NCBI RefSeq assembly: GCF_001529295.1
Contig: NZ_LLWK01000028.1
Span: forward strand, 1 to 64,000
Source: Flavobacterium sp. TAB 87
Lineage (GTDB): Bacteria > Bacteroidota > Bacteroidia > Flavobacteriales > Flavobacteriaceae
DNA: 64,000 nt
Direction: 5' to 3'
Under the pieces are notes generated by a model that saw only the letters and a program-made list of their open reading frames with translations, had not been told where the DNA came from and ran no database searches. The position numbers were made by a program, and so were the translations under genes. Of the stretch, positions 2,640-63,586 are shown one piece after another. Each line of letters opens with the position of its first letter. The first letter of the stretch is position 1.

Positions 2640-2718
2640 TTACAGCTTATACATCTATTCTGTTGGTTTGATGATATTCTAATAGCCTGTTGTTCTTGAA
2701 AATGTATTTTTTATGAAT

Positions 2719-2824: not shown

Positions 2825-3059
2825 GTTCAACTATCTAAGATAAAATTTATGATAAACGCGCTGCGTGATATAGTACAATAAAAAATCCTCTAGTGCGTGT
2901 AGTAGTACAATAGAGGAAAACCAACTCAAAAAAGTTTTCTTTTTAATTTTTAATAAATTCTCGTTTGTAATTTTACATTTATTGTCCCCTATTTTAACCA
3001 GTTAAATTCGAACTGATATTTCCTTTGTATTTATCTCTATAGACTGCTCATTTTTAATA

Positions 3060-46561: not shown

Positions 46562-46852
46562 ATGAGTGCGAAAAAACAAATCTTGTTCCCTAAACACCAA
46601 CTCCTTCTAGAGCAAATGGGTGAGAATATCAAACTATCTCGAAAAAGAAGAAAATTAACTGCTATACAAGTTTCTGAAAGAGCCGATATTGAAAGAACCA
46701 CATTATATCAAATAGAAAAAGGAAATTCTAGTGTGGCAATAGGTGCTTATTTCAATGTACTAAGAGTATTAGGGTTACAAGATGATTTTTTAAAACTAGC
46801 CGCGGATGATGAACTAGGAAGAAAACTTCAATATCTAGACTTACTAAAATAA
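46562..46852 (+). CDS. hipB: XRE-family antitoxin HipB-like
   Basis: 96 aa. The helix-turn-helix (GENIKLSRKRRKLTAIQVSE, RADIERTTLYQIEKGNSSV) begins near residue 23. Such proteins repress the operon and hold the HipA kinase in check. The gene just downstream is a HipA relative, so this is a hipBA pair. The partner is damaged, so hipB may now act only as a DNA-binding protein. Confidence 0.85.
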   Translation: MSAKKQILFPKHQLLLEQMGENIKLSRKRRKLTAIQVSERADIERTTLYQIEKGNSSVAIGAYFNVLRVLGLQDDFLKLAADDELGRKLQYLDLLK

Positions 46853-46871
46853 TCAATTTGCCTCATAATTC

Positions 46872-46886
46872 CCCTCCAATGGAGGG
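46872..46886. other. Small CCCTCC/GGAGGG hairpin between hipB and hipA
   Basis: CCCTCC-AAT-GGAGGG is GC-rich in an AT-rich context. It lies where the hipA translation start should be and looks like an inserted palindrome or REP-like unit. Confidence 0.4.
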
Positions 46887-46949
46887 CTGCCCATTAGACA
46901 TGGTGGAAAAAAATATTTAAAAACAATACTCAACACGTCTCCAGCCTAA

Positions 46950-48188
46950 ACCGATATTTACGTTTATTCGTATTGGCAACAAATGCAGAAACCTAAAATA
47001 AGAGGTGTTGAAAGAACTAAACAAGCCAAAGAAAAAAAGGCATTTAGTTTTGAATATGATAAAACTTGGTTAAAAACCGAACAAAAATTTCTCTTAGATA
47101 CAGACATACAATTATTCGGTGGTCTGTAATAAACCAATCAAAAACAAAATTTCGGAATCTTTCTAGACAGTATGCCAGACAATTGGGGACGTACCTTAAT
47201 GAAACGTCGCGAAACCCAACAAGCTAGAGAACATAATGAAAAACGAAAAACACTTTATGATATTGATTTTCTATTGGGTGTATATGACGAAAGTCGTATG
47301 GGAGCGTTACTATTTAAAACTGACCCAAATGGAGATTTCTTAGACAACAACAAAACCAGTTCTACTCCACCTTGGTCTTCCATTCGAGAATTACAAAATG
47401 CAGCTTCTCTATTCGAAAATGATAACGACGATGAAGAAGTGAATAAATGGCTAACAATACTCATGGCACCAGGTTCTTCTTTGGGTGGAGCAAGACCAAA
47501 AGCAAATATTTTAGATAATGATAAAAGCCTTTGGATTGCCAAATTCCCATCCAAGACAGATACCATAGACAAAGCAGCTTGGGAATTTTTAGCGTATCAA
47601 ATAGCAATTAATGCTGGAATCAATATGGCACCCTGCCGTATCGATAAAATCATGGGAAACCATCACACTTTTTTCACGAAACGCTTTGACAGAGAAAATG
47701 GTACGAGAATTCATTTTGCATCAGCCATGACCATGACAGGCAACAATGAAGATACTATAAGAGATAATCCTGCTAGCTATTTAGATATAGCCGAATTCAT
47801 CAGCAATCATGGGGCAAATGTAGAAGCTAATCTGTACCAATTATGGAGAAGATTAGTCTTCAATATAGCTATTTCTAATACTGACGACCATTTACGCAAC
47901 CATGGATTTATCCTAAGCAATCAAGGTTGGATTCTATCTCCAGCTTACGACCTCAATCCCTCTATTAACAAATATGGTTTAGCCCTCAATATTGATATCG
48001 ATAATAACGAACTCGATTTCGAATTGGCTAGAAGTGTGGGAGAGTATTATAGATCAAATAATTCTCAAATGGACAAGATCTTTGCTGATATACATAATGC
48101 GTTAATAGACTGGAAATTGATAGCTAAAGAAATTGGGATTTCTAGATCAGAACAGGAATTGATGACAAAGGCTTTTCTATTTAATTAG
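46950..48188 (+). pseudogene. hipA: HipA-family kinase, disrupted
   Basis: Reading from 46950 in the frame of the downstream ORF gives TDIYVYSYWQQMQKPKIRG, then AFSFEYDKTWLKTEQ and DIQLFGGL. Two adjacent TAA codons follow (47127-47132), then QNFGIFLDSMPDNWGRTLMK in the same frame. This is the normal HipA N-subdomain interrupted by a double stop. An in-frame TAA at 46947 and no ATG mark a lost start. The rest is intact: GGARPKANI (P-loop region), FTKRFDR, NIAISNTDDHLRNHGF (catalytic Asp) and AYDLNPS. Internal starts at 46983 (48 codons) and 47172 (338 codons) could give a split product resembling HipS/HipT, but decay is simpler. Function is doubtful. Confidence 0.75.
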
Positions 48189-48360
48189 TTTCATATAATA
48201 CTAAGTTGTTTTGTAAATTTGTTTCCTAATAAATATACAAAAAAACCTTTCGTAAGAATGACCAGTTTCAAAATTCCAGTCAAAATTTGAATAGGTTCAT
48301 TTGGTTAATTTTTCTAGATTTACAAATTACTACTTTAAATTGGTTAGTCTAAATTAAAAT

Positions 48361-49371
48361 ATGTCAACTACAAAATATCAAATTATTAGGTATAATAGAT
48401 TAGATCGATGCTTTCAAAACTTTGGAAAAGAATATACTATTGATGCTCTTTTAGCTAATGTAAACCAAGCGATTATTGACTATGATTCTAAAAGTGCAGG
48501 AATACAACTTAGAACTTTAAGAAAAGACATTGCATTTATGCGTTCGGAAGCGGGATACAATGCACCTATAGAAACTTATAAAAGCAGTAATGGAATTAAT
48601 TATTATCGATATGATGATAAAATTTTTTCTATAAATAAAAGTCCTTTAAATGATACTGAAGCTGAACAATTAAAAAATGCTATTTCTATTTTAAGCCGTT
48701 TTGAAGGCAGTCCAGAATTTGAATGGGTAAATGAAATTGCTCCTTTACTTAATGATAAATTTGGATTAAAAAGTCAAGAAAAGAAAGTAATGTCTTTGGA
48801 ATCTAATATTGATTACAGCGGTTACGATTATATTACCCCATTATTTAATGCGATCATTAATAAAACTGTAGTTAAAATAAATTACGAGCCATTTGGCAAA
48901 GAACCTTTTGATGTGATATTTCATCCTTATTTTTTAAAACAATATAACAATCGTTGGTTTGTATTAGGTTATAATGAGTTTAACCAAAGTCTTCATTGGA
49001 ACTTAGCCTTAGATAGAATAAAAGGTGAAATCTCAACTACTTCTTATAAATATAATATCGACACAACGGACTGGGAAGAATATTTTGAGGAGATAATTGG
49101 AGTTACAAAACCTATAGGAAACAAAGTGACAGAAGTTAAATTATTATTCAGCAAAGAGCAAGCTCCTTATATTAAAACAAAACCGATACATAGTACACAA
49201 AAAATTAAAATACAGGAGGATGGTACTTTAGAAGTTCGGATCAATGTTATTCTAAATTATGAATTAGAAACTAGAATACTTTCCTTTGGAGAAAAGGTAA
49301 AAGTTGTAGAGCCAGCTGTATTACTCAATATTATTTTAAATAGAATAAATAGGCAATTTGAAAGTTATTAA
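48361..49371 (+). CDS. WYL-domain transcriptional regulator
   Basis: 336 aa. N-terminal winged-helix region (RYNRLDRCFQNFGKEYTID, RTLRKDIAFMRSEAGYNAPI), then a WYL-like domain (VVKINYEPFGKEPFDVIFHP, QYNNRWFVLGYNEFNQ) and a C-terminal extension. WYL proteins of this build (BrxR/CapW-like) repress defence operons and release on a nucleic-acid or nucleotide signal. Here it precedes the restriction island. A palindrome that may be its operator lies 7 bp after its stop. The 170 bp before it (48189-48360) holds no gene. Confidence 0.85.
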   Translation: MSTTKYQIIRYNRLDRCFQNFGKEYTIDALLANVNQAIIDYDSKSAGIQLRTLRKDIAFMRSEAGYNAPIETYKSSNGINYYRYDDKIFSINKSPLNDTEAEQLKNAISILSRFEGSPEFEWVNEIAPLLNDKFGLKSQEKKVMSLESNIDYSGYDYITPLFNAIINKTVVKINYEPFGKEPFDVIFHPYFLKQYNNRWFVLGYNEFNQSLHWNLALDRIKGEISTTSYKYNIDTTDWEEYFEEIIGVTKPIGNKVTEVKLLFSKEQAPYIKTKPIHSTQKIKIQEDGTLEVRINVILNYELETRILSFGEKVKVVEPAVLLNIILNRINRQFESY

Positions 49372-49377
49372 TGAACT

Positions 49378-49394
49378 GTGCACTCATAATGCAC
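49378..49394 (+). promoter_or_regulatory. GTGCA/TGCAC operator-like dyad, copy 1
   Basis: GTGCACTCATAATGCAC: perfect 5-bp arms with a 7-bp spacer, 46 bp before the methylase-kinase start. A copy with 15 of 17 identities stands at 63627 before the HNH gene. It is a good candidate for the binding site of the adjacent WYL regulator. Confidence 0.6.
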
Positions 49395-49439
49395 AAATAG
49401 TTAAGACCTTTGAACTGTAATTAAAAAACAATTGATTTT

Positions 49440-52040
49440 ATGGCGAAAGTAGTATACTCAAACCCAGTGGAAGTTATCTCATTCAAAATTTTTGGTATTT
49501 TCGATGCTTTTAGAACAAATCCTAAATTAAGTCATTTAGAGGATTCTGTACCAGTTGTTCTTTTGCTTGTATCATTATATAAAGATGGTGTAATTTGTGA
49601 AAAAACGTTCACTAATAATTTCAGTCTTTCAGATCTTAAAACACTCATTTTTGAGTCAAATCTAGATAAAGAGACTAAGGATACTTATTTATTGATTTTT
49701 GATGTACTTAGTGATTCTTTGTCAAAAGTATTTAGTCAACCACTTGGTTATCTAAACTTTCATCTTTTTCAAAACGGGAAAGAAATGCTTTCAGAAAATT
49801 TTTCAAATGTAATAGACGACATTATTTATAAGATTTCTAAATCGCAAGGGCGTCATGCGGGTGAATTTATTCAACCTTTAGAATTGACTCGATTAATGTG
49901 TGGCTTAGCAAACTTAAGTATGAATTCAAAAGTATTCAATCCTTTTGCAGGTTTAGCTTCGTTTGATATTTATCTTAATAAAAATCAAGAATTTTTTGGC
50001 CAAGAGCTAAATAAAAAGACCTGGGCACTTGGTGCTTTAAGACTTATGGCTTACGGTAAACGAGTAAGTTCAGAATATATTTGCGAGGATTCTATTTTAA
50101 ATTGGCCTAAAAATACAGAAAAGTTTGATTTGATTATTTCGAATCCTCCTTACGGTGTTAGATTTGGCAATAATTATAAAGGTGTTGAGCATGAATTTAG
50201 GACTATTGAACAATTTTTAATTAAAAATGGAGTAGATTCTTTATCTGAAAATGGCAAATTAATTGTCCTTTTACCACAAGGTTTTTTATTTAGAGGAATG
50301 CAAGAAGAACGATTAAGAACGTTGCTAATTGAAGAAGATTTAATAGACACTATTATTTCCTTACCCGGAGGCTTGTTATTAAATACGGGAATACCATTAA
50401 TTATTTTAGTTCTTGATAGAAACAAGAAACTACCTGGTAGAGTAAAATTTGTTGATGCTAAGAATTTTGTCAATCTTAAAGGACCAAGAGAAAAGGTATT
50501 GAATGACCAAGAATTACTTAGTCAAATAATGGACACTTCAATTATCGATTATTCTGACAATCAAAACGTGGTTAATGAACCTTCTGAAACATATAATTCA
50601 ACTAGTTCAGCAAAGATTAATTATTTAGTTCGTTTGGTTGACAACAGTCAAATAAAAGAAAATGATTACAATCTGAGTGTTACACGCTATTTCCAAGAAC
50701 ATATTGAAGGTGTAAAACTTAGAGATATTATTGAACCATACAGAGGGCTACGAGGAAATCTTCCTGAAACTGGAAAGCTAATTCGTATTCGTGATTTAAA
50801 AGATGATAATGTAAATTTTTTATTAGATGATAAAGCTGTTGAAGAAACAGAATTGAATAGACACATGATTCACCAAATTGATGAATCATGTTTATTATTG
50901 GCAATACGTTGGAAAACATTAAAGCCTACTTTTTTTGAGTATAAGGGTAGCCCAATTTTCAAAAGTCAGGATATTTTTTCAGCCAAAATTAAACAAGTAA
51001 AAATTGATGAAGTTAACATAGCTTATTTAATCAATGAGCTTCAATCAGAATATGTTCAGAAGCAATTGGATTCATATCGCTTGGGTGCTACTATTCCTTT
51101 TATTCGTCAGGTTGATTTACTCAATGTGGTAATTAAATTACCTTCATTGGAGGAACAACATGCAAAAGTTAGTGGAATTATTGAACTTTCTTCAAAACTA
51201 AAGGAACTTGAGGTAGAGAAAGAAAATTTATTAAAAGGTATTAAAAAAGAAGAAACCGAAAGTTCAACTTCTTTAAGTCATATTTTAGGAAAACCTTTAT
51301 TAAGTATAGGATCTTCTCTTGAAATAATTCAAAATACTTTATCTAAAGTATATCCAGAATGGAAAGATTTATTAATTAGTGAAACCAAACAATTTTATAT
51401 GATTGATGCATTTGAATCCATTTCTAAAAATGTCAAATATATTCAAGAACTAGCAGATGAAAATACTGCTTTAGTAAGTGTATATTCATTCAATTTAATA
51501 GAAATTAATTTTCTGAAATTTCTATCTGAATTCGTCAAAAATGAAAAGAAAAGTCTAAAAAACAATATTGACATTAAACTAGATATTCATGAAGATATAA
51601 AAGAACAAATGAACAATAAAGTTTTCGTTTTTGGTAACGAACAAAAACTAAAAATTGTTTTGATAAACCTTATCGATAATGCTAAAAATCATGCTTTCAT
51701 AGAGCCAGACATGGAAAATAAAATAAATATTGAAATACTTCCTTTTACCAGAAATGAAAGAGAGGCCTATTTGTTAAATTATGATATTAATGGACGAAAA
51801 TCATATGTTGAGATAAGAATTTCAAATACAGGAAAACCTTTTCCAAAAGATTTTACATTAGAAGACTACACAAGAAAAAATTTTGCTGTTGGAAAAACTC
51901 GTAACAGAGGTTTGGGTGGTTATGAAGTTAATGAGATAATTAAAGCTCACAATGAAGGAAAAAAAGCGCTGAATATATCTTCTTCAGAAGATGATAAAAA
52001 ATACAGTTCAACTGTTTCATTTTTAATACCAATAATTTAA
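49440..52040 (+). CDS. N6-adenine DNA methylase fused to a specificity-like region and a histidine-kinase core
   Basis: 866 aa. Residues ~120-400 form an N6-adenine methylase of type I M class: VFNPFAGLASFDIYL (SAM motif), catalytic N235PPY in DLIISNPPYGVRFG and LIVLLPQGFLFRG. Residues ~410-600 look like one HsdS-type target domain with a terminal helix (KLRDIIEPYRGLRGN, PFIRQVDLLNVVIKLPSLEE). After that comes a HisKA-like H-box SHILGKPLLSI (H614), the N-box LKIVLINLIDNAKNHAF, a G1-like ISNTGKPF and the G2 box RGLGGYEVNEII. This is a complete kinase core, not a GHKL fragment. The receiver gene lies 2 bp downstream. I know of no named system with this architecture. The order is read from motifs and the function is inferred. 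Confidence 0.8.
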   Translation: MAKVVYSNPVEVISFKIFGIFDAFRTNPKLSHLEDSVPVVLLLVSLYKDGVICEKTFTNNFSLSDLKTLIFESNLDKETKDTYLLIFDVLSDSLSKVFSQPLGYLNFHLFQNGKEMLSENFSNVIDDIIYKISKSQGRHAGEFIQPLELTRLMCGLANLSMNSKVFNPFAGLASFDIYLNKNQEFFGQELNKKTWALGALRLMAYGKRVSSEYICEDSILNWPKNTEKFDLIISNPPYGVRFGNNYKGVEHEFRTIEQFLIKNGVDSLSENGKLIVLLPQGFLFRGMQEERLRTLLIEEDLIDTIISLPGGLLLNTGIPLIILVLDRNKKLPGRVKFVDAKNFVNLKGPREKVLNDQELLSQIMDTSIIDYSDNQNVVNEPSETYNSTSSAKINYLVRLVDNSQIKENDYNLSVTRYFQEHIEGVKLRDIIEPYRGLRGNLPETGKLIRIRDLKDDNVNFLLDDKAVEETELNRHMIHQIDESCLLLAIRWKTLKPTFFEYKGSPIFKSQDIFSAKIKQVKIDEVNIAYLINELQSEYVQKQLDSYRLGATIPFIRQVDLLNVVIKLPSLEEQHAKVSGIIELSSKLKELEVEKENLLKGIKKEETESSTSLSHILGKPLLSIGSSLEIIQNTLSKVYPEWKDLLISETKQFYMIDAFESISKNVKYIQELADENTALVSVYSFNLIEINFLKFLSEFVKNEKKSLKNNIDIKLDIHEDIKEQMNNKVFVFGNEQKLKIVLINLIDNAKNHAFIEPDMENKINIEILPFTRNEREAYLLNYDINGRKSYVEIRISNTGKPFPKDFTLEDYTRKNFAVGKTRNRGLGGYEVNEIIKAHNEGKKALNISSSEDDKKYSSTVSFLIPII

Positions 52041-52042
52041 TT

Positions 52043-53224
52043 ATGAGTAAAATATATAAAATACTTTGGATAGATGATGAACATGATGACGATGCATTAT
52101 TACCATTTATTCTTCAAGCTGAAGCTCAGGGCATTATATTAGAAGGATATGGTTCCTTTAAAGAAGGTTTTTATGCGCTTGAATCAAATATAAATAATTA
52201 CGATCTTATTCTTCTTGATGCATTATTTTTTGAAGATGAAACATCAGAAACTCCTAACCCTGCAGGTTTAGGCTCTGCTATTCAGAAAATACATGAATTA
52301 AGAAGCAGAAAAACATTTCCATATTTTGTATTGTCTGGACAAACTCATTTTACGGATGTTACCAATCCTATACTTGAAGCTTTCAAGATTAGATGTTACA
52401 ACAAAAAGAATCCCGATGATGTTAAAGAGTTGTTAATCAATATTAAGACTGAAGCGGATAATCAAATTGTAACTCAAATTAAGCATGAAAATCAATTACT
52501 TTTTAATGTTTTAAAAGAATATCCCGACGAAGTTAGAGACACATTTATTACTATTTTCAGAAATCAAAAAGAAGGTAATAATCAATTTGATGATCAATTA
52601 TACTTTACGCAATTAAGAATTATTTTAGAACATTTATTTAGAAAAGCAAACGATATTGGAATACTGCACGATGCCTGTGTTCAAAAAGGAAATAATCAAG
52701 TTAACTTAACAGAGTCAAGTTTGTTTTTAGCTGGTTTTGATACAAAACATTTGAATGTTAACTGTGCCATAACCCATTTTCCGAAGTTAATCGCTGAAAA
52801 TGTAAAAAACATAATTTATACCACAGGAGCTGCATCTCACACTTCTAATGTCAATGTAACTCAAAATATCGATATACAAGCTTACAGAAAGGACATAATA
52901 TCACCATACCTCTTATATTCTTTAGCTTTCCAATTAATGGATGTTTTATTATGGTTTGATAGCTATAGCAAAACCAATGATGATATTGCATTAAATCGAT
53001 CATTGTGGAAAAGTTTTAATAGAGACCAATTTGGTAACAAAATTGAGATAGAAAAAATAACAAACATTACTCATAGCGGTTGGGGAACAGTTGAAATCAA
53101 TAACGGAACTAAAAAAATTAGTATACACAAAGATGCTATTACGCAAAGTAATTTGGCTGTCGGAGATCAAATTAAGTTCAATGTTAAAGACTCTTCTTTA
53201 GCACAAAACATAACAAAAATTTAA
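52043..53224 (+). CDS. Receiver-domain protein with a cold-shock-like C-terminus
   Basis: 393 aa. Residues 1-130 are a receiver-like fold: acidic ILWIDDEHDDD, phospho-acceptor D59 in LILLDALFFED, and PYFVLSGQT for the switch residue. The middle (about 150-330) is a helical domain of unknown family with RIILEHLFRKANDIG and AFQLMDVLLWFDSYSK. The last 55 residues (GWGTVEINNGTKKISIHKDA, LAVGDQIKFNV) read like a cold-shock/OB fold (G-x-G-T/F ... I-HKDAI ... GD-x-(I/V)-x-F). It is 2 bp from the methylase-kinase, so they are almost certainly coupled. A phospho-switch that binds nucleic acid is the simplest reading, but it is inferred. Confidence 0.72.
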   Translation: MSKIYKILWIDDEHDDDALLPFILQAEAQGIILEGYGSFKEGFYALESNINNYDLILLDALFFEDETSETPNPAGLGSAIQKIHELRSRKTFPYFVLSGQTHFTDVTNPILEAFKIRCYNKKNPDDVKELLINIKTEADNQIVTQIKHENQLLFNVLKEYPDEVRDTFITIFRNQKEGNNQFDDQLYFTQLRIILEHLFRKANDIGILHDACVQKGNNQVNLTESSLFLAGFDTKHLNVNCAITHFPKLIAENVKNIIYTTGAASHTSNVNVTQNIDIQAYRKDIISPYLLYSLAFQLMDVLLWFDSYSKTNDDIALNRSLWKSFNRDQFGNKIEIEKITNITHSGWGTVEINNGTKKISIHKDAITQSNLAVGDQIKFNVKDSSLAQNITKI

Positions 53225-53243
53225 AATAAATACAATAATACCC

Positions 53244-54962
53244 ATGATAACAGGCGACCTCAAATCATCAATAGACGCAATATGGAGCACCTTTTGGACA
53301 GGAGGAGTTACCAACACCATAACAATCGTAGAGCAACTTACATACCTCATCTTCATTAAAGATTTAGACGAGTCAGAGGTAAGAAACGAGTTAAAAGCAC
53401 GACACGGTTTCAAATACACACCTATTTTTAACCAAGAACAACAACAGTTCCGTTGGAAAAATATAAAAGAACTAGATGTAAATGCACGACATAATCTCTT
53501 TACCAATACAGTTGATGGAATTTTTCCATTCATTCGTTCCTTAGGGAAAGAAACAAGTCTTTTCGCTACCCACATGAAAGGAGCGACATTTGGCATTTCT
53601 AAACCTGCTGTATTGGACCAAGTAATGGAGAAGCTAGAAAATATCGACATGTCTAAGCAAGACACAAAAGGAGATATTTACGAATACCTATTGTCAAAAT
53701 TAGAAGGCGGTGGAACAGCTGGACAATTCCGTACACCACGACACATTATTAAATTAATGGTAGAGCTGATGCAACCTACTTTAGAAGACACAGTGTGTGA
53801 TCCATCAGTAGGGACTGCGGGGTTTTTAGTAGCTGCCAAAGAATACATCGACAAACACAACGACGTCACTAAATTGGACCGATACGCAAACCACATCAAT
53901 ACAAAGATGTTCAACGGTACAGAATTCGATGCGACGATGTTGCGTATTGCTTCTATGAACTTATACCTGCACGGTGTTGAAGAACCAAATATTATAGATG
54001 TCGATGCTGTTTCTAAAGACAATACAATTTCAAATGCCTATACCTTAGTATTAGCAAATCCTCCGTTTAAAGGAACAATCGACAAAGAAAGTATTGCTCC
54101 GGGATTAAAAAATGTTACCGATACCTCGAAAACCGAATTGTTATTTTTAGCCCTTATGCTTCGACAATTAAAAACCGGTGGTCGTGCAGCAGTAATTGTA
54201 CCTGATGGTGTATTATTCGGAAGCGGAAAAGCGTACAAAAGTATTAGAGAAGAAATCATAGCTAATAACAAACTAGAAGCAGTTATCTCAATGCCTAGTG
54301 GAGTTTTTAAACCTTATGCCGGAGTAAGCACTGCCATAATCATTTTTACAAAAACAGGAACTGGTGGAACTGATAATGTTTGGTTCTACGATATGCTTGC
54401 CGATGGAAAATCATTAGACGACAAACGTAGTTTATTAGTAGACGAAGACTTATTCATGGATTTTGCCTTTGGTGATGCCTTTTCAAAAAGAAAAGAAATT
54501 ATTAAAGATGCAGATGCAAGTACTCCAAAAAAAGGAGACAACGACAGTGAAGATGAGTTTGACTTTTTGCCTAATAAAAAAGAAAAACAAGATACCCTAC
54601 ACGCTAAATTCAATTTACCGCAAATTCTTGATCATTACCGTTATTTAAAAAGTGATTATTTCAAAAAAATGCACGGTAAAAACGGAGAAGTGTTACATGT
54701 TCATGATGTACCAGAAAATTTAGGATGGGACAAGTTTATGAACGGTACGTGTACCCACGATTACAGCGACAGAACCTCTCAAAGTTTCTTAGTGCCTTTT
54801 AAAGAAATAAAAGAAAACGATTGGGATTTATCGATAAACTCATACAAGAAAATAGTGTATGAAGAAGTCGTATACGATGCGCCTAAAATTATTATCGATA
54901 GAATATTAGAAACTGAAAAGGAAAGAGCAAAATTAATGTCTAATCTAAAAAGTAATTTATAG
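53244..54962 (+). CDS. hsdM: Type I restriction-modification methylase subunit HsdM
   Basis: 572 aa. N-terminal HsdM helical domain (LKSSIDAIWSTFWTGGVTN, YLIFIKDLDESE). SAM-binding PSVGTAGFLVAAKEYI and the catalytic N272PPF in VLANPPFKGTID follow. GQFRTPRHIIKLMVELM is the usual HsdM anchor. It modifies adenine at the site chosen by HsdS. It shares 1 nt with the hsdS GTG start. The gene starts 19 bp after the receiver gene; the neighbour's own methylase is separate. Confidence 0.93.
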   Translation: MITGDLKSSIDAIWSTFWTGGVTNTITIVEQLTYLIFIKDLDESEVRNELKARHGFKYTPIFNQEQQQFRWKNIKELDVNARHNLFTNTVDGIFPFIRSLGKETSLFATHMKGATFGISKPAVLDQVMEKLENIDMSKQDTKGDIYEYLLSKLEGGGTAGQFRTPRHIIKLMVELMQPTLEDTVCDPSVGTAGFLVAAKEYIDKHNDVTKLDRYANHINTKMFNGTEFDATMLRIASMNLYLHGVEEPNIIDVDAVSKDNTISNAYTLVLANPPFKGTIDKESIAPGLKNVTDTSKTELLFLALMLRQLKTGGRAAVIVPDGVLFGSGKAYKSIREEIIANNKLEAVISMPSGVFKPYAGVSTAIIIFTKTGTGGTDNVWFYDMLADGKSLDDKRSLLVDEDLFMDFAFGDAFSKRKEIIKDADASTPKKGDNDSEDEFDFLPNKKEKQDTLHAKFNLPQILDHYRYLKSDYFKKMHGKNGEVLHVHDVPENLGWDKFMNGTCTHDYSDRTSQSFLVPFKEIKENDWDLSINSYKKIVYEEVVYDAPKIIIDRILETEKERAKLMSNLKSNL

Positions 54963-56206
54963 TGATAGTTGATTTAAATTACGTTCCAAAAGGTTGGAAA
55001 AAAATTAAAATACCTAAAGTCTTATTTTTTCAAGAAGGACCAGGTGTTAGAAATTGGCAGTTTACAGAGACAGGTGTCAAATTACTTAATGTTGGTAATA
55101 TCAATCTAGGAAAGATTGATTTAAGCAAAACAAGTATTCACTTATCCGATGAAGAAGCTAATGGAAAATACAAGCATTTTCTAGTGGATGATGGCGATTT
55201 ATTAATTGCTTGCTCTGGCATTGTTGTAGATAATTTTCATAACAAAATTGCTTTTGCTAAAAAAGAACATTTACCACTGTGTTTAAATACAAGTACAATG
55301 CGTTTTAAAGCATTGAATGATAAGGTAGATTTAAATTATTTCAAATATTATTTACAAACAGTTCATTTTACGGCACAATTAAGAAAATTAATTACAGGTT
55401 CTGCACAACTTAATTTTGGTCCAAGCCATATCAAGAAAATTGACTTGTTATTACCTCCACTAGAAACACAAAAACACATCGCACAAATTCAAGACGATGC
55501 AGCTGCTTTACGCGATAAAACAGAGCAACTTCTTAAAGAATATGATGCTTTAGCACAATCTATCTTTTTAGACATGTTTGGAGATCCAGTTATTAATCCT
55601 CAAAATTGGGAAAAAAGAAAGTTGAAAAATGGTATTATTAATCTCCAATCAGGTTTAAGTTTATCTGGTGAGGAAAGAGACTTGAAAGAAGGAGAAATTG
55701 CAGTATTGAAAATAAGTGCAATTACAACTGGTGAATTTATTAATACTGAATATAAAGTTGTTGATAAAACCAACATCAGTAAATTCCTTGTTTTTCCTAA
55801 AAAAGGAGATTTATTATTTTCCAGAGCTAATACAAAAGAAAAAGTTGGTGCTATTGCAACTGTAGATAGAGATTATAATAATATTTTTATTCCAGATAAA
55901 TTATGGAGAATAGATACTAACCATCTTTTGAATAAAACGTTTTTAAAATTTATATTATCACATAGTGGTTTTAGATATAATATTGAGAAAGTATCTACTG
56001 GAACATCTGGATCAATGGTTAATATTTCAATGTCAAAATTTCTTAAAATTGAAGCTCCTTTTCCACCCATAGATCTCCAAAAGCAATTCGCAGAAAAAAT
56101 AATATTAATCGAAAAGCAAAAAGAATTAGCAAAACAAGAGCTTCAAGAAAGCCACGATTTGTTTAATTGTTTGTTGCAAAAAGCGTTTAAAGGAGAATTA
56201 GTGTAA
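54962..56206 (+). CDS. hsdS: Type I restriction-modification specificity subunit HsdS
   Basis: 414 aa from a GTG that overlaps the hsdM stop by one base. Two target-recognition domains are separated by a conserved helix (DKTEQLLKEYDALAQSIFLD, MFGDPVINPQNWEKRKL); a second helix ends the protein (FAEKIILIEKQKELAKQELQ). The first TRD starts YVPKGWKKIKIPKV and the second LKNGIINLQSGL. Its recognition sequence cannot be read from the window. It completes the methylation half of the type I complex. Confidence 0.92.
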   Translation: MIVDLNYVPKGWKKIKIPKVLFFQEGPGVRNWQFTETGVKLLNVGNINLGKIDLSKTSIHLSDEEANGKYKHFLVDDGDLLIACSGIVVDNFHNKIAFAKKEHLPLCLNTSTMRFKALNDKVDLNYFKYYLQTVHFTAQLRKLITGSAQLNFGPSHIKKIDLLLPPLETQKHIAQIQDDAAALRDKTEQLLKEYDALAQSIFLDMFGDPVINPQNWEKRKLKNGIINLQSGLSLSGEERDLKEGEIAVLKISAITTGEFINTEYKVVDKTNISKFLVFPKKGDLLFSRANTKEKVGAIATVDRDYNNIFIPDKLWRIDTNHLLNKTFLKFILSHSGFRYNIEKVSTGTSGSMVNISMSKFLKIEAPFPPIDLQKQFAEKIILIEKQKELAKQELQESHDLFNCLLQKAFKGELV

Positions 56207-56225: not shown

Positions 56226-58310
56226 ATGAAAATGAAAGACACTTTCTCTTTACAAGATATTGCAAACTGGCAATTAGATTCCGGAAACTCAACTGTTGAA
56301 TTGCCTTCTATTCAGCGTGGCTTTGTTTGGAAACCCAAACAAGTAGAAGATTTATGGGATTCTCTTTTACGAGGCTATCCTATTGGTTCTTTTTTGTTTT
56401 CAAAAACAAGCGACAAGCTCCATTTAATGGATGGCCAACAAAGAGCAACATCTATTTTTTTAGGGCATTTCAACCCCTACAATGCGACAGATGCTACCAA
56501 AGCATGGTCAATAAAAGGGGAATTACCCGTTTTATGGTTGGATATTAAGCATTTAGCAAAGCCAACCACAAGCAAATATTTATTCCGTTTAACAACCCGC
56601 TCACATCCCTGGGGATATCAGGCAAATAACAATGATGCAAAATTAACCGTATCAGAAAGACGCAAAGCATTAGAACTATTCAAGCAACATCCTGATAATA
56701 CTGGTGGCTATACTTCGTTTAAAAACACCACAACCTTTCCGTTTGATGCTGCGCATCCAATACCTCTAACTTTTATTTTGGAGGCAAAAAACACGGATGA
56801 AGTGATAGAAATGGTAGAACAATATTTACCAGATTATTTTGCTACCTTAAGAGGGAACTTTCAAGATAAAAGTGAATTTATTACTTTACTCAAAACAGAA
56901 TTAAAACCAGAGTTAGACAATATTTTTGAGAATGTAAAACATCTTAATCAATTACTGATTAAGTCAAACATTATTGAAGATCGAGTTTTACAAGAAGAAA
57001 ACGAGACCGAAAACCCCACTCTTTTTGTAAGGATAAATTCTTCAGGAACCACTTTAAACGGTGACGACTTAATCTATTCGATTTACAAAGCAATTTTTCC
57101 AGAAGCCAAAACTTTGATGGAAAATATAGGGTTAGATTTTATTGCACCTACACAAGTCCTTTCATTAGCATCTCGTATAGTTGCTTCTGATTTAAGTGAA
57201 AATGCCTTTGTAAAAAAAATTAATGTTAGAGATTTTCAACGTAGAATAAAAAACGAAGAATTTAAAGAAGGCTTAAAAAATCAAATTCAAACACAACAAT
57301 TAAAAGAGTTATTCGCTCAAGCAATAGGTATTCTATCCTGTGAAGATAATTCCTTGTTTGACGGTAAAATTCCTCCAGTCATTATCAAACAGTTCATCAA
57401 GAGAAATCAAGATTTGTTTTTATTTTTAGTGTATTGGTTACACATCAACAAGATAGAGCTAACCGATCAGACTAAACTTAAAATGGTGGCTAAGCTAATG
57501 GCATTTGCTTGGTTTGATTTTGACAATATTCCTCGTTTATGGAACGAAAAAATCAGCAATAAGAACTTCTGGGAGGAACCACTGAATGAATTAATGTGGT
57601 GGGATGATAAGTATGGTATACACTTTCTAATCAAACCAGATTTATTGCGAGAATATTATTTACAACCAAAGGTTGAGAACAGGTTTATAACTGAGGATAA
57701 AGATAGATGGGGACTTTTGGAGGAAGGCGCCGGTTCTAAAATAATAAAGTATTACAATAATGTGAAAACGCAAAGCTATGATTTCGCAATTGCGAATGAA
57801 TATTTCTATAATTTCATTGGAAGAATCCAACATAACAGGCAACTAATTTTATTAGCGCAAAGACAATATATAAATACCACTTTTGGTGACTATAACCAAA
57901 TGGATGATATGGATGACACTAATGTTCCTTGGGACTGGGACCATATATATCCAAACGAATGGGTTTATCGAAAAGAGTACTGCAATAGAAGTATCAGAGA
58001 TTGGAATAACACAAATGGTAATTTCCGTGCGATGTCGCTAGAACAAAACAGAAGTGAAAGTAATTCAGCTTCTCCAAAAGAGCGACTTGATCTTGCAGAA
58101 ATTAGAGAATGTTCATTTGTAAAAGAGGACTGGCAGTATTGGCAGAATTTAGAAAAAAGAATTTGGGATAATAAAGTAGAAAATCATTTTCGAGCAATAA
58201 CTACACGTATGATTAATATTTATGAGATATTCTGGAATGATTTTAAAATAGAAGAATTAATTGATTCAAATACCATCCCAAATAAAGTCTCAGAAAACAT
58301 AGCTAATTAA
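56226..58310 (+). CDS. DUF262/HNH (GmrSD-like) protein
   Basis: 694 aa. N-terminal DUF262 (ParB-like nucleotide-binding) domain: LPSIQRGFVWKPKQVEDLWD, YPIGSFLF and the D69GQQR motif. The C-terminal part resembles DUF1524/HNH: WDWDHIYPNEWVYR and NTNGNFRAMSLEQNRSESNS. Together these are the GmrS- and GmrD-like halves of type IV modification-dependent nucleases, fused as in many single-chain versions. It sits inside the type I operon, 19 bp after hsdS. Its target (modified phage DNA) is inferred from the family. Confidence 0.83.
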   Translation: MKMKDTFSLQDIANWQLDSGNSTVELPSIQRGFVWKPKQVEDLWDSLLRGYPIGSFLFSKTSDKLHLMDGQQRATSIFLGHFNPYNATDATKAWSIKGELPVLWLDIKHLAKPTTSKYLFRLTTRSHPWGYQANNNDAKLTVSERRKALELFKQHPDNTGGYTSFKNTTTFPFDAAHPIPLTFILEAKNTDEVIEMVEQYLPDYFATLRGNFQDKSEFITLLKTELKPELDNIFENVKHLNQLLIKSNIIEDRVLQEENETENPTLFVRINSSGTTLNGDDLIYSIYKAIFPEAKTLMENIGLDFIAPTQVLSLASRIVASDLSENAFVKKINVRDFQRRIKNEEFKEGLKNQIQTQQLKELFAQAIGILSCEDNSLFDGKIPPVIIKQFIKRNQDLFLFLVYWLHINKIELTDQTKLKMVAKLMAFAWFDFDNIPRLWNEKISNKNFWEEPLNELMWWDDKYGIHFLIKPDLLREYYLQPKVENRFITEDKDRWGLLEEGAGSKIIKYYNNVKTQSYDFAIANEYFYNFIGRIQHNRQLILLAQRQYINTTFGDYNQMDDMDDTNVPWDWDHIYPNEWVYRKEYCNRSIRDWNNTNGNFRAMSLEQNRSESNSASPKERLDLAEIRECSFVKEDWQYWQNLEKRIWDNKVENHFRAITTRMINIYEIFWNDFKIEELIDSNTIPNKVSENIAN

Positions 58311-58312
58311 AA

Positions 58313-59521
58313 ATGATAAATATAGATTTTAAATTTCGCGCTGTTGGCCAAGGTGCTTTTTATACTGGTATTTTTAAACACTTCAATGGCAAACAGTTTT
58401 CATTTGTTTACGATTGTGGAACGGACTCATCGCGACAATATATAGAGAAAGAGATAACAAACTTTGTAAGTGAAACTAATAATCAAAAAATTGACATTCT
58501 TTTTATTTCTCATTTCCATAGAGATCATATCAATAAAATTGGAGAATTATTAAATCAAACTGGAGGGGCAAATTTAGCAATACTACCCTACTTAACTCCT
58601 GACGAATTAGTATTAGCTTATATCGATATCAATTTATCTGGAGGCATCGATCCTGATACCTTAGCTTTCATTCAAAATCCAGCAGGATTTTTACAAGAAA
58701 GAAAAGTAGATAAAATAATTTTTATCCACCCAAGTGATGAAGGTGATTCTGATTCTGAAGACGAACCGCAAGAAATAAAAACAGATCTTGATTCTCCAGA
58801 TTTTGATTTTATAATCTCAAACACTTTAAAACCTAATAATGATATTTTAGAAAATAATCCAAAAGTGGAACATTATTATGACAAAGGTAACTTCTCAATT
58901 GTAGGTTTCTGGGAATTCAAGTTTTTTAATAAAACAAGAGATATTACTACTCTCAATAACTTATGCCAAGAAGTGCAAAATCTTTTAAGTTTACCAACAT
59001 TTAATTTAAGTGATCTAGCAGATTATATAACAAATAATGAAAATACTTTTGAAACTGATTTCAATCAAATCTATTCTCGAAATTTTGGATATGGTCAATT
59101 AATCAATGATACTAGTATAGTAATCTATCATGGAGCAATAAAAACAAGAAAGTACCGAAAATGGTTTGGAAGATTACCAGGATGGTTTGGAAGTGGATTC
59201 ACAGGTACTTTATTAACTGGAGCCATACGGTTTAATCAAGATAGTTTAAATCAAATTCAAAGTAAGTGGTTAAATCAAAAATATTTTAAAAAAACAAGTG
59301 TTTTTCAAATTCCACACCATGGAGCAAATAACTATATTGAATCAACAGTGATATCCTCTTATCCAAATGTTAAATGGTGGGTAATAAATTTTGGTTTAGG
59401 AAACACACATAAACATCCTAGACAAGAAATTATCGATATAATTGAAAATCACAAGATCCAAGGAAATATCTTTCCTAATACACAAATAAACACAGTAGAA
59501 TATAAAGGACTATACAGATAA
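58313..59521 (+). CDS. Metallo-beta-lactamase-fold hydrolase (ComEC/Rec2-like branch)
   Basis: 402 aa, no signal peptide. N-terminal VGQGAFYTGIF and VYDCGTDSSR, the metal site S66HFHRDH and the C-terminal IPHHGANNYIESTVI are the typical ComEC-like MBL marks. These domains are often nucleases or phosphodiesterases when found alone in defence islands. It lies 2 bp after the DUF262 gene and 3 bp before the GIY-YIG gene. Cytoplasmic; the substrate is unknown. Confidence 0.8.
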   Translation: MINIDFKFRAVGQGAFYTGIFKHFNGKQFSFVYDCGTDSSRQYIEKEITNFVSETNNQKIDILFISHFHRDHINKIGELLNQTGGANLAILPYLTPDELVLAYIDINLSGGIDPDTLAFIQNPAGFLQERKVDKIIFIHPSDEGDSDSEDEPQEIKTDLDSPDFDFIISNTLKPNNDILENNPKVEHYYDKGNFSIVGFWEFKFFNKTRDITTLNNLCQEVQNLLSLPTFNLSDLADYITNNENTFETDFNQIYSRNFGYGQLINDTSIVIYHGAIKTRKYRKWFGRLPGWFGSGFTGTLLTGAIRFNQDSLNQIQSKWLNQKYFKKTSVFQIPHHGANNYIESTVISSYPNVKWWVINFGLGNTHKHPRQEIIDIIENHKIQGNIFPNTQINTVEYKGLYR

Positions 59522-59524
59522 CAA

Positions 59525-60088
59525 ATGAGTAACATCGAACAATCCTATCCAGAAGACTTACAAGAAATACTCAATTACGCAGAGGAATTGTCAATATCAA
59601 TTATAGATAAACTGAACCATTTTGATGCTAAAAAAGTCAATGACTTTTATACTGTCACAAATGAAAAAATAATCAGGAATAAAGCTTTATTTAATGAACT
59701 AGGATATATTCCAAATACAATTTCAAGTAACAGCAAAAACGAACAACCCAACGAATTCAAAGGTTTATATATTTTTGGTGAAAAAACAAATGGAATAATA
59801 GTTCCAGTATATGTTGGAATTAGCCGTACCATTTTCAGAAGATTAAGACAACACGCTTGGGGTAAAAATCACAACGAGTGTACTCTTGCCTATTTGAAAA
59901 CAAAACACAGTAATAAAGCTATTACCAGAAAAATAGTAACAAGTGATGATATGCTTCCGGCAAAAAGCAAAATTCAAAATTACACAGTAGTTTTAATCCC
60001 TGTTCCAAATGATTATGATTTATATTTTCTAGAAGTAGTTTTAGCAGGAAAATACAAGACAAAATGGAATAGTTTCAGAACACATTAG
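59525..60088 (+). CDS. GIY-YIG-type nuclease
   Basis: 187 aa. The GIY-YIG core appears as GLYIFGEK and PVYVGISRTIFRRLRQHA, with the family Arg, and a C-terminal Glu in LYFLEVVLAGKYKTKWNSF followed by the Asn. The first 70 residues are helical and unassigned. It may be part of a nuclease module with the MBL and DUF262 genes. Its spacing to hsdR is 12 bp, so all are one operon. Confidence 0.78.
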   Translation: MSNIEQSYPEDLQEILNYAEELSISIIDKLNHFDAKKVNDFYTVTNEKIIRNKALFNELGYIPNTISSNSKNEQPNEFKGLYIFGEKTNGIIVPVYVGISRTIFRRLRQHAWGKNHNECTLAYLKTKHSNKAITRKIVTSDDMLPAKSKIQNYTVVLIPVPNDYDLYFLEVVLAGKYKTKWNSFRTH

Positions 60089-60100
60089 TATATTAGCTTT

Positions 60101-63100
60101 ATGGAAACAAACTTTCAATTTTTAGCAGAGGAATGGGCTGACTTTCACCAAAGAAGTGTAAAAGCAGAACAATCGGTAGTTACAGATCCGCGTACTTCAT
60201 TGACATATTCTCGTATGGCATTAGAAATTGCTATCAATTGGATGTTTACAAATGATGAAGAACTTACGCTTCCTTATGACACTACCTTAAACTCTTTGAT
60301 GAAACAAAGAGAGTTTCAAGAACAGTTTCCGCATAAATTATACAATGAAATCGATTTAATTCGAAAAGCAGGAAACTTAGCGATACACAACAAACAGGTT
60401 ACAAAAGCAGATGCGGAGAAAATAATAGAAAACCTTTTCTATTTTTCAAGATGGTTTGCGCAATCCTATGCTCAGAATAATGTAGATACCATTCCAATGT
60501 TCAATTGGGAATTAATTCCTACCGAAGGACAAGAAGCACTTTCTAAAAAAGACTATAAAAAAGTTGAAGATAAATTTGAAACCGATCTTGGAAAGTTCAA
60601 ATCAAAACTAAAACAAGAAGCAGAAAAAAATACAGCCTTAGCCAGCGAAAATGAACTATTTAAAAAACAAATAGAAGCATTACAAGCACAAATTGAGACA
60701 AATAAAAAAGAGGCAAATACAGCCGACATCACAAATCATCCTCGTAACGAAGACGAAACACGTAAATATTTTATAGATGTATCTCTTCGTGAAGCAGGTT
60801 GGGATTTATCAGGAAGTAAAGACAAGGAGTTTAAGGTACAATTCATGCCTAAATCAACAAATGTTTCCGAAACAGGTTATGTAGATTATGTACTTTGGGA
60901 CGATGATGGTTTACCATTAGCAATAGTCGAAGCTAAAAAAACAATGGAAAGTGCGACAAAAGGTGAAAATCAAGCCCAATTGTATGCCGAATGTATTGAA
61001 GAAATGTACGGTCGCCGTCCGGTGATGTATTATTCAAACGGTTTTGAAACCTACTTATGGGATGATCAATTCTATAAAAAATCAAGAATAGTCCATGGTT
61101 TTTACACCAAAAAAGAACTACAAACTTTAATGTTTCGCCGAGAAAACCGAGAAGACATTAGAGAGCAACCAATTGATACGACCATAACAGACAGAGCATA
61201 CCAATTAAGAGCCATCCGTTCAGTAGCTGCACATTTTGCAGGAAATGATAAAGCAAACGGCAAACTTCTTGGAACACATAGAGCTGCCTTATTAGTCTTA
61301 GCTACAGGAACTGGTAAAACTCGAATTAGTATTGCTATCTCTAAATTGTTATTAGAAGCCAATTGGGCAAAAAGAATATTGTTTTTAGCCGATAGAAAAA
61401 GTTTAGTCAGTCAAGCTAAAAATAACTTTGTCAAATTAATGCCAGAACATTCTAGTGTCAATTTATTACAAGAAAAGGACAACGTCGAAGCTCGTATTGC
61501 TTTTTCAACCTACCCTACCATGATGGGTCTTATCGATGGTTCTAAAGAAAAAGACAAACGTTTTTATGGTGTAGGTCATTTTGATTTAATCATTGTAGAT
61601 GAAGCACACCGTTCTATTTATAAAAAATACCAAGCTATATTTGATTATTTCGATGCCTTATTTTTAGGATTAACAGCAACTCCTATAGAAATTATCGATA
61701 AAAATACCTATGCCAGTTTTGGATTAGCTGATAAAGCACCAACGGACGCTTATACCTTTGAAGAAGCGGTTGCTAATAAACATTTAGTGCCTTACAATAC
61801 AATAGAAGTGCCGACTAAATTTTTGAGACAAGGTATCCATTATGACGATCTAACAGAAGAAGAGAAAGAAGAATTTGAAGAAGAAATTTTAGACGGTGAA
61901 GAAGCAACAGGCCAAGAAATCATTCCGGCAAACGAATTAAATACTTGGTTGTTTAATAAAGATACAGCAATTAAAACGCTGCAATATCTTTTAGATAAAG
62001 GAATAAAAAAAAGAGGTGGTGATGAAATAGGGAAAACTATAATCTTTGCCAGAAATAGAAAACATGCTCAATTCTTAAAAAACATGTTCCTTGAATTAGA
62101 TCCAGAACGTTATGGAAATGATTACGTAAAACTAATAACCCATGGAGAACCAAAAGCGGAAGAATTTATTCAACGCTTTTGTGATGAAGAAAAAGAAAGG
62201 TTGCCACAAATCGCCATTTCAGTAGACATGATGGACACAGGAATTGATGCTCCTAGTTGTGTGAATTTGATGTTCTACAAACCAGTTAAGTCCAAAGCTA
62301 AATTTTGGCAAATGATAGGAAGAGGTTCTCGTTTACGTCCAAATTTATTTGGAGAAAACCAAGACAAAGAGAACTTTTTGATTTTTGACTTGTATGGAAA
62401 TTTTGAATACTTTAAAGAAAATTCAAAAGGTATTGAAACTGGATCGCAAAAAAGTTTAACTGAAATTGTTTTTAGTTTAAAATTGCAATTAGCCTTATAC
62501 CTAAAAGAAGATAATTTTAAAGAGGACCACGAACTTCAAGAATATAGTGAACGACTTTTAAATGAATTGTATAACTCCATTATTGAATTAAACAAAGAAC
62601 GTTTCGATGTGAAAATGAAAATCGAAACGGTGATGGATTTCTCAAAAAGAGAAGTATGGAATCATTTAGATAAGAAAGAGTGCAAAACAATTTTAGATAT
62701 TTTAGCTCCATTAGTAAGATCGTCAAAAGCAGACTCAGACACCGCTCGTTTCTATGATAAGATGATATATACACTTATGATAGAACGCGTTGAAACACCT
62801 AACACGGAAGAGTTTTTAGCAACCTTAAACGTTCCAATTACAAAAGCAGCCATCATCTCCAAAAAGCTATTGAAGAAAACCTCAATACCAGAAATAATTG
62901 ACAATCTAGAAATAGTAAAACTACCTTTGGATGAAGATTTTTGGAAAAGTAGTGGTTTAAATCATTTAGAAAAAATCCGTGCAGGCATTCGTGAATTAGT
63001 AAAATACATGGATCCTGTGGACCAAAGATATGTCACAACTAATTTTGAAGATGCAATTCTGGAAGCTGAAATTATAACTTCAGCTTTTGGAGAGGAAAAA

Positions 63101-63586
63101 TCAGAATCTTATACCAATCCTTTCGCTAATAACACACATCGTTTAGAAGAAATTATTAGAGAAAACAAAAACAACATTACCATCGGCAGAATCCAAAACG
63201 GAGAACCTATTACCGAAGAGGAATTAAAATCATTAGAAAAGCTACTTTTTTCGAATAAAATCCAAAAGGAACAAGTCGAGAAAGAAATAGGACATCGTTT
63301 AGATTTAGTAGCATTTATAGTTGGTTTAATAGGCTTATCTCCAGAAAAAGTGAATGCCTCTTTTGCAGACTTTATTAATAAATACCAATTAACAGCAGTC
63401 CAAATTCAATTTTTAGATACCATCAAATTGTTTCTTACAAACAATGGTAAAATAGATCCTTCAAAATTATACGACTCCCCTTTTAAAAGCTACCACAGTC
63501 TAGGTATAGACGGGGTTTTTAATGAAGAGCAATCAACTAATATTTTTGGTATTCTAGATACTTATAACAGAAATAATTTGGGATAA
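60101..63586 (+). CDS. hsdR: Type I restriction endonuclease subunit HsdR
   Basis: 1161 aa, full length. A DUF4145-like N-terminus (TSLTYSRMALEIAINWMFTN, IRKAGNLAIHNKQ) and a coiled segment lead to the nuclease domain VDYVLWDDDG...LAIVEAKK (D, E277xK279). The SF2 helicase follows: ATGTGKT (401-407), IIVDEAHRS (500-503) and LTATPIE. ARNRKHAQFLK and MIGRGSRLRP lie in the second lobe. It cuts unmethylated DNA after translocation. The subunit is separated from hsdM-hsdS by three accessory genes. Confidence 0.94.
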   Translation: METNFQFLAEEWADFHQRSVKAEQSVVTDPRTSLTYSRMALEIAINWMFTNDEELTLPYDTTLNSLMKQREFQEQFPHKLYNEIDLIRKAGNLAIHNKQVTKADAEKIIENLFYFSRWFAQSYAQNNVDTIPMFNWELIPTEGQEALSKKDYKKVEDKFETDLGKFKSKLKQEAEKNTALASENELFKKQIEALQAQIETNKKEANTADITNHPRNEDETRKYFIDVSLREAGWDLSGSKDKEFKVQFMPKSTNVSETGYVDYVLWDDDGLPLAIVEAKKTMESATKGENQAQLYAECIEEMYGRRPVMYYSNGFETYLWDDQFYKKSRIVHGFYTKKELQTLMFRRENREDIREQPIDTTITDRAYQLRAIRSVAAHFAGNDKANGKLLGTHRAALLVLATGTGKTRISIAISKLLLEANWAKRILFLADRKSLVSQAKNNFVKLMPEHSSVNLLQEKDNVEARIAFSTYPTMMGLIDGSKEKDKRFYGVGHFDLIIVDEAHRSIYKKYQAIFDYFDALFLGLTATPIEIIDKNTYASFGLADKAPTDAYTFEEAVANKHLVPYNTIEVPTKFLRQGIHYDDLTEEEKEEFEEEILDGEEATGQEIIPANELNTWLFNKDTAIKTLQYLLDKGIKKRGGDEIGKTIIFARNRKHAQFLKNMFLELDPERYGNDYVKLITHGEPKAEEFIQRFCDEEKERLPQIAISVDMMDTGIDAPSCVNLMFYKPVKSKAKFWQMIGRGSRLRPNLFGENQDKENFLIFDLYGNFEYFKENSKGIETGSQKSLTEIVFSLKLQLALYLKEDNFKEDHELQEYSERLLNELYNSIIELNKERFDVKMKIETVMDFSKREVWNHLDKKECKTILDILAPLVRSSKADSDTARFYDKMIYTLMIERVETPNTEEFLATLNVPITKAAIISKKLLKKTSIPEIIDNLEIVKLPLDEDFWKSSGLNHLEKIRAGIRELVKYMDPVDQRYVTTNFEDAILEAEIITSAFGEEKSESYTNPFANNTHRLEEIIRENKNNITIGRIQNGEPITEEELKSLEKLLFSNKIQKEQVEKEIGHRLDLVAFIVGLIGLSPEKVNASFADFINKYQLTAVQIQFLDTIKLFLTNNGKIDPSKLYDSPFKSYHSLGIDGVFNEEQSTNIFGILDTYNRNNLG

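Follow-up and report, generated by a model that had tools for sequence, protein, structure and literature searches.

What role can a DNA methylase fold play when it is joined in a single chain to a histidine kinase and placed directly in front of restriction genes? The question is raised by positions 49,440 to 53,224 of a 64,000-nucleotide stretch of DNA from Flavobacterium sp. TAB 87 (RefSeq assembly GCF_001529295.1; contig NZ_LLWK01000028.1, positions 1 to 64,000 of the forward strand), referred to here as the window, in which the gene for a methylase-kinase fusion is followed by the gene for a receiver protein. Based on sequence analysis, this pair, or cassette, probably acts as a soluble two-component system that controls the defence module next to it, with a mostly degenerate methylase/specificity head employed as the sensor. 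Since the pair recurs beside different anti-phage genes in the Bacteroidota, its role is probably to switch these genes and not to modify DNA. The proposal builds on the architecture of the two proteins, the homology of kinase and receiver, the invariance of the phosphotransfer residues, the linkage, the co-divergence of the parts, and the exchange of modules, all of which are established. The two genes and their parts are:

49440 to 52040, plus strand: fusion of 866 amino acids comprising a methylase fold, one S-like recognition region and a histidine kinase core; intact open reading frame.
49800 to 50699, plus strand: N6_Mtase fold, fusion residues 121-420 (Pfam E value 4.1e-42), with the atypical motif I NPFAGLASF.
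50142 to 50153, plus strand: methylase motif IV of the fusion, N235-P-P-Y238, canonical in the window protein.
50727 to 51164, plus strand: single S-type target-recognition region, fusion residues 430-575 (PADLOC Specificity_I matches; hhalign match to HsdS).
51237 to 52037, plus strand: DHp-like helix region and HATPase (GHKL) domain, fusion residues 600-866 (Pfam HATPase_c; profile matches to solved histidine kinases).
51279 to 51281, plus strand: codon of H614, the predicted phospho-accepting histidine, identical in 23 of 23 fusions.
52043 to 53224, plus strand: receiver protein of 393 amino acids with a REC domain (about residues 1-135) and a C-terminal output part; intact open reading frame, with a profile match to solved response regulators.
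52217 to 52219, plus strand: codon of D59 of the receiver, the predicted phospho-accepting aspartate, identical in 26 of 26 receivers.

An earlier sequence-only reading had described a methylase fused to a complete histidine kinase, with a coupled receiver. What it had located was found in place, namely the 866-residue protein at 49440-52040, N235PPY, H614, the N-box residue N747, the GLGG box at G824, and a receiver with D59 whose ATG lies 2 nucleotides after the stop codon of the fusion.

Is this pairing conserved? The genome searches covered the Bacteroidota, and searches of plasmid and phage records were the sole look beyond the phylum. The receiver search was positive in 10 of 395 phylum genomes, the window's own included. 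A profile search of the class gave 18 of 395 genomes at E values up to 1e-5, comprising 14 strong matches (of which G000, G053, G138, and G150 were already known from the phylum search) and weak matches in G774, G037, G958, and G1004, which stand outside the counts. A profile search of the genus gave 19 of 299 genomes at E values up to 1e-3; four of these carry cassette receivers (the window's genome included; G556 has two), two more were fetched (L065 and L066), and the remaining 13, with weak and short matches, are outside the counts. The receiver of Chryseobacterium echinoideorum (L016) is 84% identical to that of the window, and three plasmid records of Myroides odoratimimus with a receiver were counted as one locus (L067). 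Plasmid searches with P0002 and two more receivers returned the same three Myroides records only, and a fourth receiver returned none. There was no receiver match in the phage records, and none of 19 pattern-matching viral stretches encodes a receiver relative.

Starting from the receiver, 24 of the 25 fetched relatives have the fusion directly beside it, counting one locus with the kinase end only of the fusion on its contig (L084) and one with the fusion in pieces (L099). Starting from the kinase, a profile search of 395 phylum genomes gave matches in 58 at E values up to 1e-15. The 12 matches of at least 149 bits, the window included, were taken as the family, and those below the ensuing gap (at most 78 bits) were regarded as ordinary kinases; all 12 adjoin a receiver. 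The sequence-only reading had made its proposal depend on such co-occurrence, which holds from both directions. The exception in the receiver-first search, L104, has a receiver without the fusion on a 5.4-kb contig, beside genes for Cas6-like, RT-Cas1, and Cas2 proteins; this (L104:421-1311, with neighbours to 4850) is possibly a CRISPR locus under phospho-control. In L099 (1762-3997), the receiver reading frame is intact and the fusion is in several pieces, i.e., a decaying copy.

The profile check of residues 600-866, which the sequence-only reading had singled out in advance, found a histidine-kinase-like C-terminus with an H-box. With a 16-row profile of the kinase region, the best match among solved histidine kinases is 3a0r_A (E value 3.2e-16; profile positions 70-269); 4i5s (E value 2.7e-14), whose H-box histidine aligns with H614, and 2c2a (E value 1.5e-11) are also matched. 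An alignment of 23 fusions (L084, L099, L104, and L125 being left out) contains nine invariant positions at a median identity of 21%. Five are in the kinase (H614, N747, G798, G824, and G826), four are in the recognition region (L453, K495, Q542, and Q573), and none is in the methylase domain. The window fusion has 12 histidines, of which H614 alone is kept in all 23 rows, and the N-box N747 and the G2-box residues G824 and G826 (G824-L-G-G827 in the window) are likewise present in 23 of 23. In L125, a later find viewed separately, the H, N, and G boxes and motif I were inspected, and motif IV is lost. The motifs are not accidental; judged by homology, the C-terminus of the fusion is a histidine kinase and its partner a response-regulator-like protein.

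Taken alone, the window receiver has no Pfam match better than an E value of 0.03. As a 16-row profile, it finds response regulators (3jte; E value 8.7e-5), which account for nine of the 12 matches at E values up to 1. Among 26 receivers with a median pairwise identity of 23%, D12, D59, and K121 are the sole invariant positions of 393; position 98 is Ser or Thr in all 26, and the set of acidic pair, Asp, Ser/Thr, and Lys is complete in each. A cold-shock-like (CSD) match at the C-terminal end of the window receiver (E value 0.052) does not count as evidence. The output half of the L064 receiver (8758-9690) is SLFN_AlbA_2, of the Schlafen type (Pfam E value 4.5e-17), and that of the L125 receiver (2438-3385) is AlbA_2-like by eye. 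The two receivers show output-domain swapping, on visual judgement as far as L125 is concerned.

What, then, has become of the methylase? The head is true in fold, and its enzymatic activity is doubtful for the family as judged from its motifs. Motif IV has the canonical form [NDS]PP[FYW] in eight of 23 fusions and is non-canonical in 15, while motif I has the HsdM form DPxxGx[AGC][GS] in four and a different form, mostly with Asn for Asp, in 19. Both motifs are of HsdM form in none of the 23 fusions versus all 16 neighbouring HsdM-like proteins (one per locus, the window included; extra hsdM-like matches at L018, L025, and L100 were left out). Among close relatives the methylase part also diverges faster than the kinase, with 52% versus 74% identity between the window and L016. 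The term methylase in the sequence-only reading is thus apt for the N6_Mtase fold and questionable for the activity of the family, in which motif IV is lost in 15 of 23. With NPPY retained in the window protein, and with the typical replacement in motif I (N for D) being mild, this particular member may still be active. Annotations of "N-6 DNA methylase" beside restriction-modification (RM) genes, such as the label on the Myroides plasmid, may denote sensors. A recent origin of the fusion by duplication of the local HsdM was rejected; the best other match of the fusion in its own genome lies on another contig (28% identity over residues 114-421), and the six matches listed do not include the local hsdM. 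In two fusions (L025:6695-9508 and L063:10093-12891) there is an N-terminal HARE-HTH match that is absent from the window protein (E value 4e-5, just below the cut-off, and 1.3e-6, respectively).

The region between the N6_Mtase fold and the ATPase is matched by the PADLOC specificity models, and a profile of 16 fusion recognition regions aligns with a profile of 11 HsdS sequences at an hhalign probability of 98.2% (E value 6.2e-14). The loci L097 and L098 have nearly identical cassettes, and their fusion recognition regions share 96% and their HsdM proteins 94% identity, whereas their hsdS products share 40%. The recognition region of the fusion thus does not follow the RM specificity subunit at these loci; the RM target has probably changed there, while the region in the fusion has not.

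Across 16 HsdM loci, kinase identity correlates with REC domain identity at r=0.91 and with HsdM identity at r=0.49. Among pairs with kinase identity below 50% (116 of 120), the two coefficients fall to 0.75 and 0.10. Since all correlations tested were higher than in most shuffles (p 0.001-0.009), the link to HsdM is weaker but not absent. RM modules that are alike can stand beside unlike cassettes. The window and L102 share 77% identity in HsdM, 19% in the kinase, and 22% in REC, and the respective values for L021 and L098 are 91%, 34%, and 49%. Together with the pair L097/L098, these contrasts indicate that the cassette moves as a unit.

Which genes would it control? In the window, the genes that flank the pair are all on its strand:

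48361 to 49371, plus strand: WYL/WCX-domain regulator gene, just upstream of the fusion (Pfam WCX E value 4e-13, WYL E value 4.6e-8).
53244 to 54962, plus strand: hsdM, the neighbouring type I methylase, with motifs I and IV intact (Pfam E value 9e-60).
54962 to 56206, plus strand: hsdS (Pfam Methylase_S E value 1.2e-17).
56226 to 58310, plus strand: GmrSD_N-type gene (Pfam E value 4.7e-27).
58313 to 59521, plus strand: metallo-beta-lactamase-fold protein (Pfam Lactamase_B E value 1.5e-5).
59525 to 60088, plus strand: GIY-YIG nuclease-like protein (Pfam E value 5.3e-5).
60101 to 63586, plus strand: hsdR (Pfam ResIII E value 4.4e-36, EcoEI_R_C E value 1.6e-20).

An HsdM-like gene is beside the pair in 16 loci, the window included, and GmrSD-type genes are present at the window, L020, L021, L024, and L098. 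The neighbours are Druantia III in L061 (DruE3, 2435.6 bits; DruH3, 98.5 bits), with genes of equal or near-equal length in L062, McrBC in L125, and AAA, PLD-like, radical SAM, and UvrD-type genes in L022. The Druantia models were run on L061 only, and module annotation drew on chosen genes per locus. A type I enzyme is absent from the fetched stretches of the Druantia III and McrBC loci. A module was recognised in 21 loci, and in 18 of these, the window among them, it lies 3' of the pair on the same strand. Predicted promoters, at 39 versus 30.9 expected, are uninformative, and no terminator-like site was found in 48000-53400, where just 1.5 would be expected by chance. A relative of the WYL regulator occurs within the fetched stretch in 16 of 25 receiver-found loci. 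Two divergent members have an extra gene directly before the fusion, which encodes a radical SAM protein with B12-binding domain in L101 (13009-14271) and a DUF2130 protein in L102 (5612-6868).

The idea of a phospho-signalling pair within a restriction or defence locus, already put forward in the sequence-only reading, is supported by these comparisons. In the proposed mechanism, the type I methylase/specificity-like head, mostly degenerate as an enzyme, would be kept as a binding module and serve as the sensor. Binding of DNA in some state, or of a phage product, would alter autophosphorylation at H614, for which the kinase would use ATP. The phosphate would then pass from H614 to D59 of the receiver encoded next door, whose output part may switch the neighbouring restriction genes through their expression or by direct contact.

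Several observations weigh against this mechanism. The HATPase_c match of the window protein (residues 732-864; E value 5.7e-5) scores 24 bits, short of the 26.4 that Pfam sets as its gathering score. The G1 box, D-x-G-x-G in textbook kinases, is N-x-G-K-P in the window, position 796 being Asn in 22 of 23 fusions and Asp in none. The acidic residue that usually follows the phospho-accepting His is present in four of 23 only (L022, L023, L024, and L067) and is absent from the window protein. The kinase called complete in the sequence-only reading accordingly retains the H-box, N-box, and G2 box, and lacks the standard G1 box and the acid after H614. However, the solved kinase 3a0r likewise has Asn in G1 in the profile alignment, so that these deviations are departures inside the histidine kinase group and do not exclude the fusions from it. 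Predicted structures have a mean pLDDT (predicted local distance difference test) of 40.1 for the kinase region and 37.3 for the receiver, values too low for use, which we attribute to the window and L016 sequences having been the only input. An output domain was recognised only in L064 (AlbA_2) among the 16 receivers scanned, the C-terminal parts of the other 15 having no convincing Pfam family. The kinase-HsdM correlation, though lower, exceeds shuffles (p 0.001). The module is upstream of the pair in three of the 21 loci (L018, L063, and L100), and for L025, L064, and L103 the annotated genes include no recognised module immediately next to the pair; an OLD-like ATPase gene lies nearly 6 kb downstream in L103, and most L025 genes fall outside the annotation.

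The acid missing in 19 of 23 fusions and the replaced Asp of G1 would also suit a GHKL ATPase without phosphotransfer, i.e., a structural switch as in paraMORC or MutL with the receiver as a binding partner only, as would a profile similarity to HATPase_c_3-type pairs that covers the ATPase only. Set against H614 in 23 of 23 fusions, D12, D59, S/T98, and K121 in all 26 receivers (median identity 23%), and a kinase profile alignment that takes in the H-box (4i5s), such a switch is very unlikely. It is more improbable still that the pair is a passenger on mobile defence islands, functionally unlinked to its neighbours. The window does lie among conjugation genes, one relative is on a mobilizable Myroides plasmid, and three loci (L025, L064, and L103) are without a recognised adjoining module, but the order of pair and then module on one strand in 18 of 21 loci speaks against it, as does the lack of terminator-like sites, with the low chance expectation mentioned above.

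Alternatively, the fusion could be an active second modification enzyme with M and S functions in one chain, like type IIG, its kinase tuning the methylation of one fixed site, so that the output would be methylation and not restriction control. NPPY in the window protein, its N6_Mtase match (E value 4.1e-42), and the conservation of the recognition region among relatives, which a single fixed site would lead one to expect, would agree with this, but the non-canonical motif IV (15/23), the non-HsdM motif I (19/23), the combination of both found in 0/23 fusions and 16/16 HsdM proteins, and the faster divergence of the methylase part (window/L016, 52% versus 74%) make it improbable. Could the fusion instead sense how the neighbouring RM enzyme's own site is methylated and turn this into a phospho-signal? 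The head does belong to the same superfamilies as HsdM and HsdS. However, L097 and L098 combine recognition regions of 96% and HsdM of 94% identity with hsdS of 40%, the cassette also occurs beside Druantia III and McrBC, and without near pairs HsdM and kinase identities are nearly unrelated (r 0.10); we regard this possibility as decidedly unlikely. The sequence-only reading had suggested that target recognition or methylation state is converted into a phospho-signal. Its phospho-signal stands, while the reading of the RM enzyme's own site or methylation is weakened by the loss of motif IV, the pair L097/L098, and the Druantia III and McrBC neighbours.

Phage anti-restriction DNA mimics such as Ocr and ArdA attack M-S complexes. 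The degenerate head might be an integrated decoy that imitates a type I M-S complex, is bound by phage anti-restriction proteins, and lets the kinase report this by phosphorelay to the adjoining module, whether type I RM, GmrSD, Druantia III, or McrBC. We offer this tentatively and give it a small chance; if true, a two-component system would have given rise in bacteria to a counterpart of the integrated-decoy immune receptors of plants.

How does a two-component controller of this kind compare with known systems? A literature search, with bioRxiv preprints and most subscription papers outside its scope, found no account of a defence locus that contains a methylase joined to a histidine kinase. 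Defence operons controlled by kinases are known, and a methylase-headed histidine kinase with a receiver appears to be a new form of such control. The view of the sequence-only reading that no named system has this architecture therefore holds for the searches made, with the proviso that related kinds exist in HEF_HK/Response_reg_2 (PMC8011034) and CapK/CapS (PMC13373217). The former (PF19191/PF19192) is closest in its parts, as the consulted portion of PMC8011034 describes soluble kinase-like and receiver-like proteins side by side in RM neighbourhoods, with the same receiver residues. Most of the pairs described there combine HATPase_c_3, HEF_HK, and HATPase_c, the stress is on type II C5-methylases, and, unlike in the window, no methylase fusion appears in that portion. 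PF19191 and PF19192 each exceeded the cut-off in none of 15 genomes, and none of the listed weak matches is at a cassette. Pairs with a HATPase_c_3 + HATPase_c kinase-like protein and a receiver-like protein that resemble the HEF_HK architecture occur in L065 (7163-10583) and L066 (7462-10756), in whose genomes neither family has a match over the cut-off. Their assignment to the family of the cassette was rejected, the profile similarity being limited to REC (94% probability) and the ATPase (93%).

CapK/CapS, which is not the same family, is closest in its working. According to PMC13373217, the genes for a GHKL kinase and its substrate lie together next to immune operons of diverse kinds, in 88 of 443 cases just downstream of RM. 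CapK (HTH-STAS-GHKL) is activated by single-stranded DNA, its phosphorylation target being a serine in CapS, a STAS-wHTH repressor, and the paper counts the pair as the third family among the immune-operon regulators that DNA damage activates. In the cassette, by contrast, the kinase has a methylase head and an H-box and its partner is an Asp receiver, and neither STAS nor HTH is among the Pfam matches of the two window proteins at E values up to 1.

With type I HsdM/HsdS the fusion shares the methylase fold and the S-type recognition region, and it differs in its single recognition region, its fused kinase, its mostly degenerate motifs, and the lack of a tie to the RM specificity subunit. In the NxD branch of McrBC, two-component genes and methyltransferases are found in operons with a restriction system, as here, although the McrB-like protein of L125 has the ordinary NxxD form (NTAD) and the methylase-kinase fusion is not among the genes described in the consulted sections of PMC11090510. 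MADS (MAD2 and MAD5) also includes methylase and S-like genes and has weak profile similarity, with a PADLOC mad2 score of 61 bits for the fusion; the NCBIfam MADS models have no match to it, and the neighbouring HsdM reaches 93 bits versus a cut-off of 720. The window pair would thus add a controller with His-Asp residues and a sensor made from a retired RM head, standing next to defence genes of four or more dissimilar kinds, and it raises the question of what a methylase-like head senses once methylation is no longer needed.

The remaining features lie upstream of the operon. Just before it, at 46562-48188, are a small helix-turn-helix-like gene, recognised by eye, and a HipA_C gene (Pfam E value 1.8e-50), which probably form a HipBA-like toxin-antitoxin pair. 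Between 19036 and 46402, a tmRNA gene is followed by genes for a TraG-type ATPase, a relaxase, and a coupling protein; the island is probably carried by an integrated conjugative element, whose insertion site may be the tmRNA gene. Within this region, at 36688-39613, there are Double-GTPase (DO-GTPase1) and GAP1-N1 genes, with more genes on the same strand upstream from 33492.

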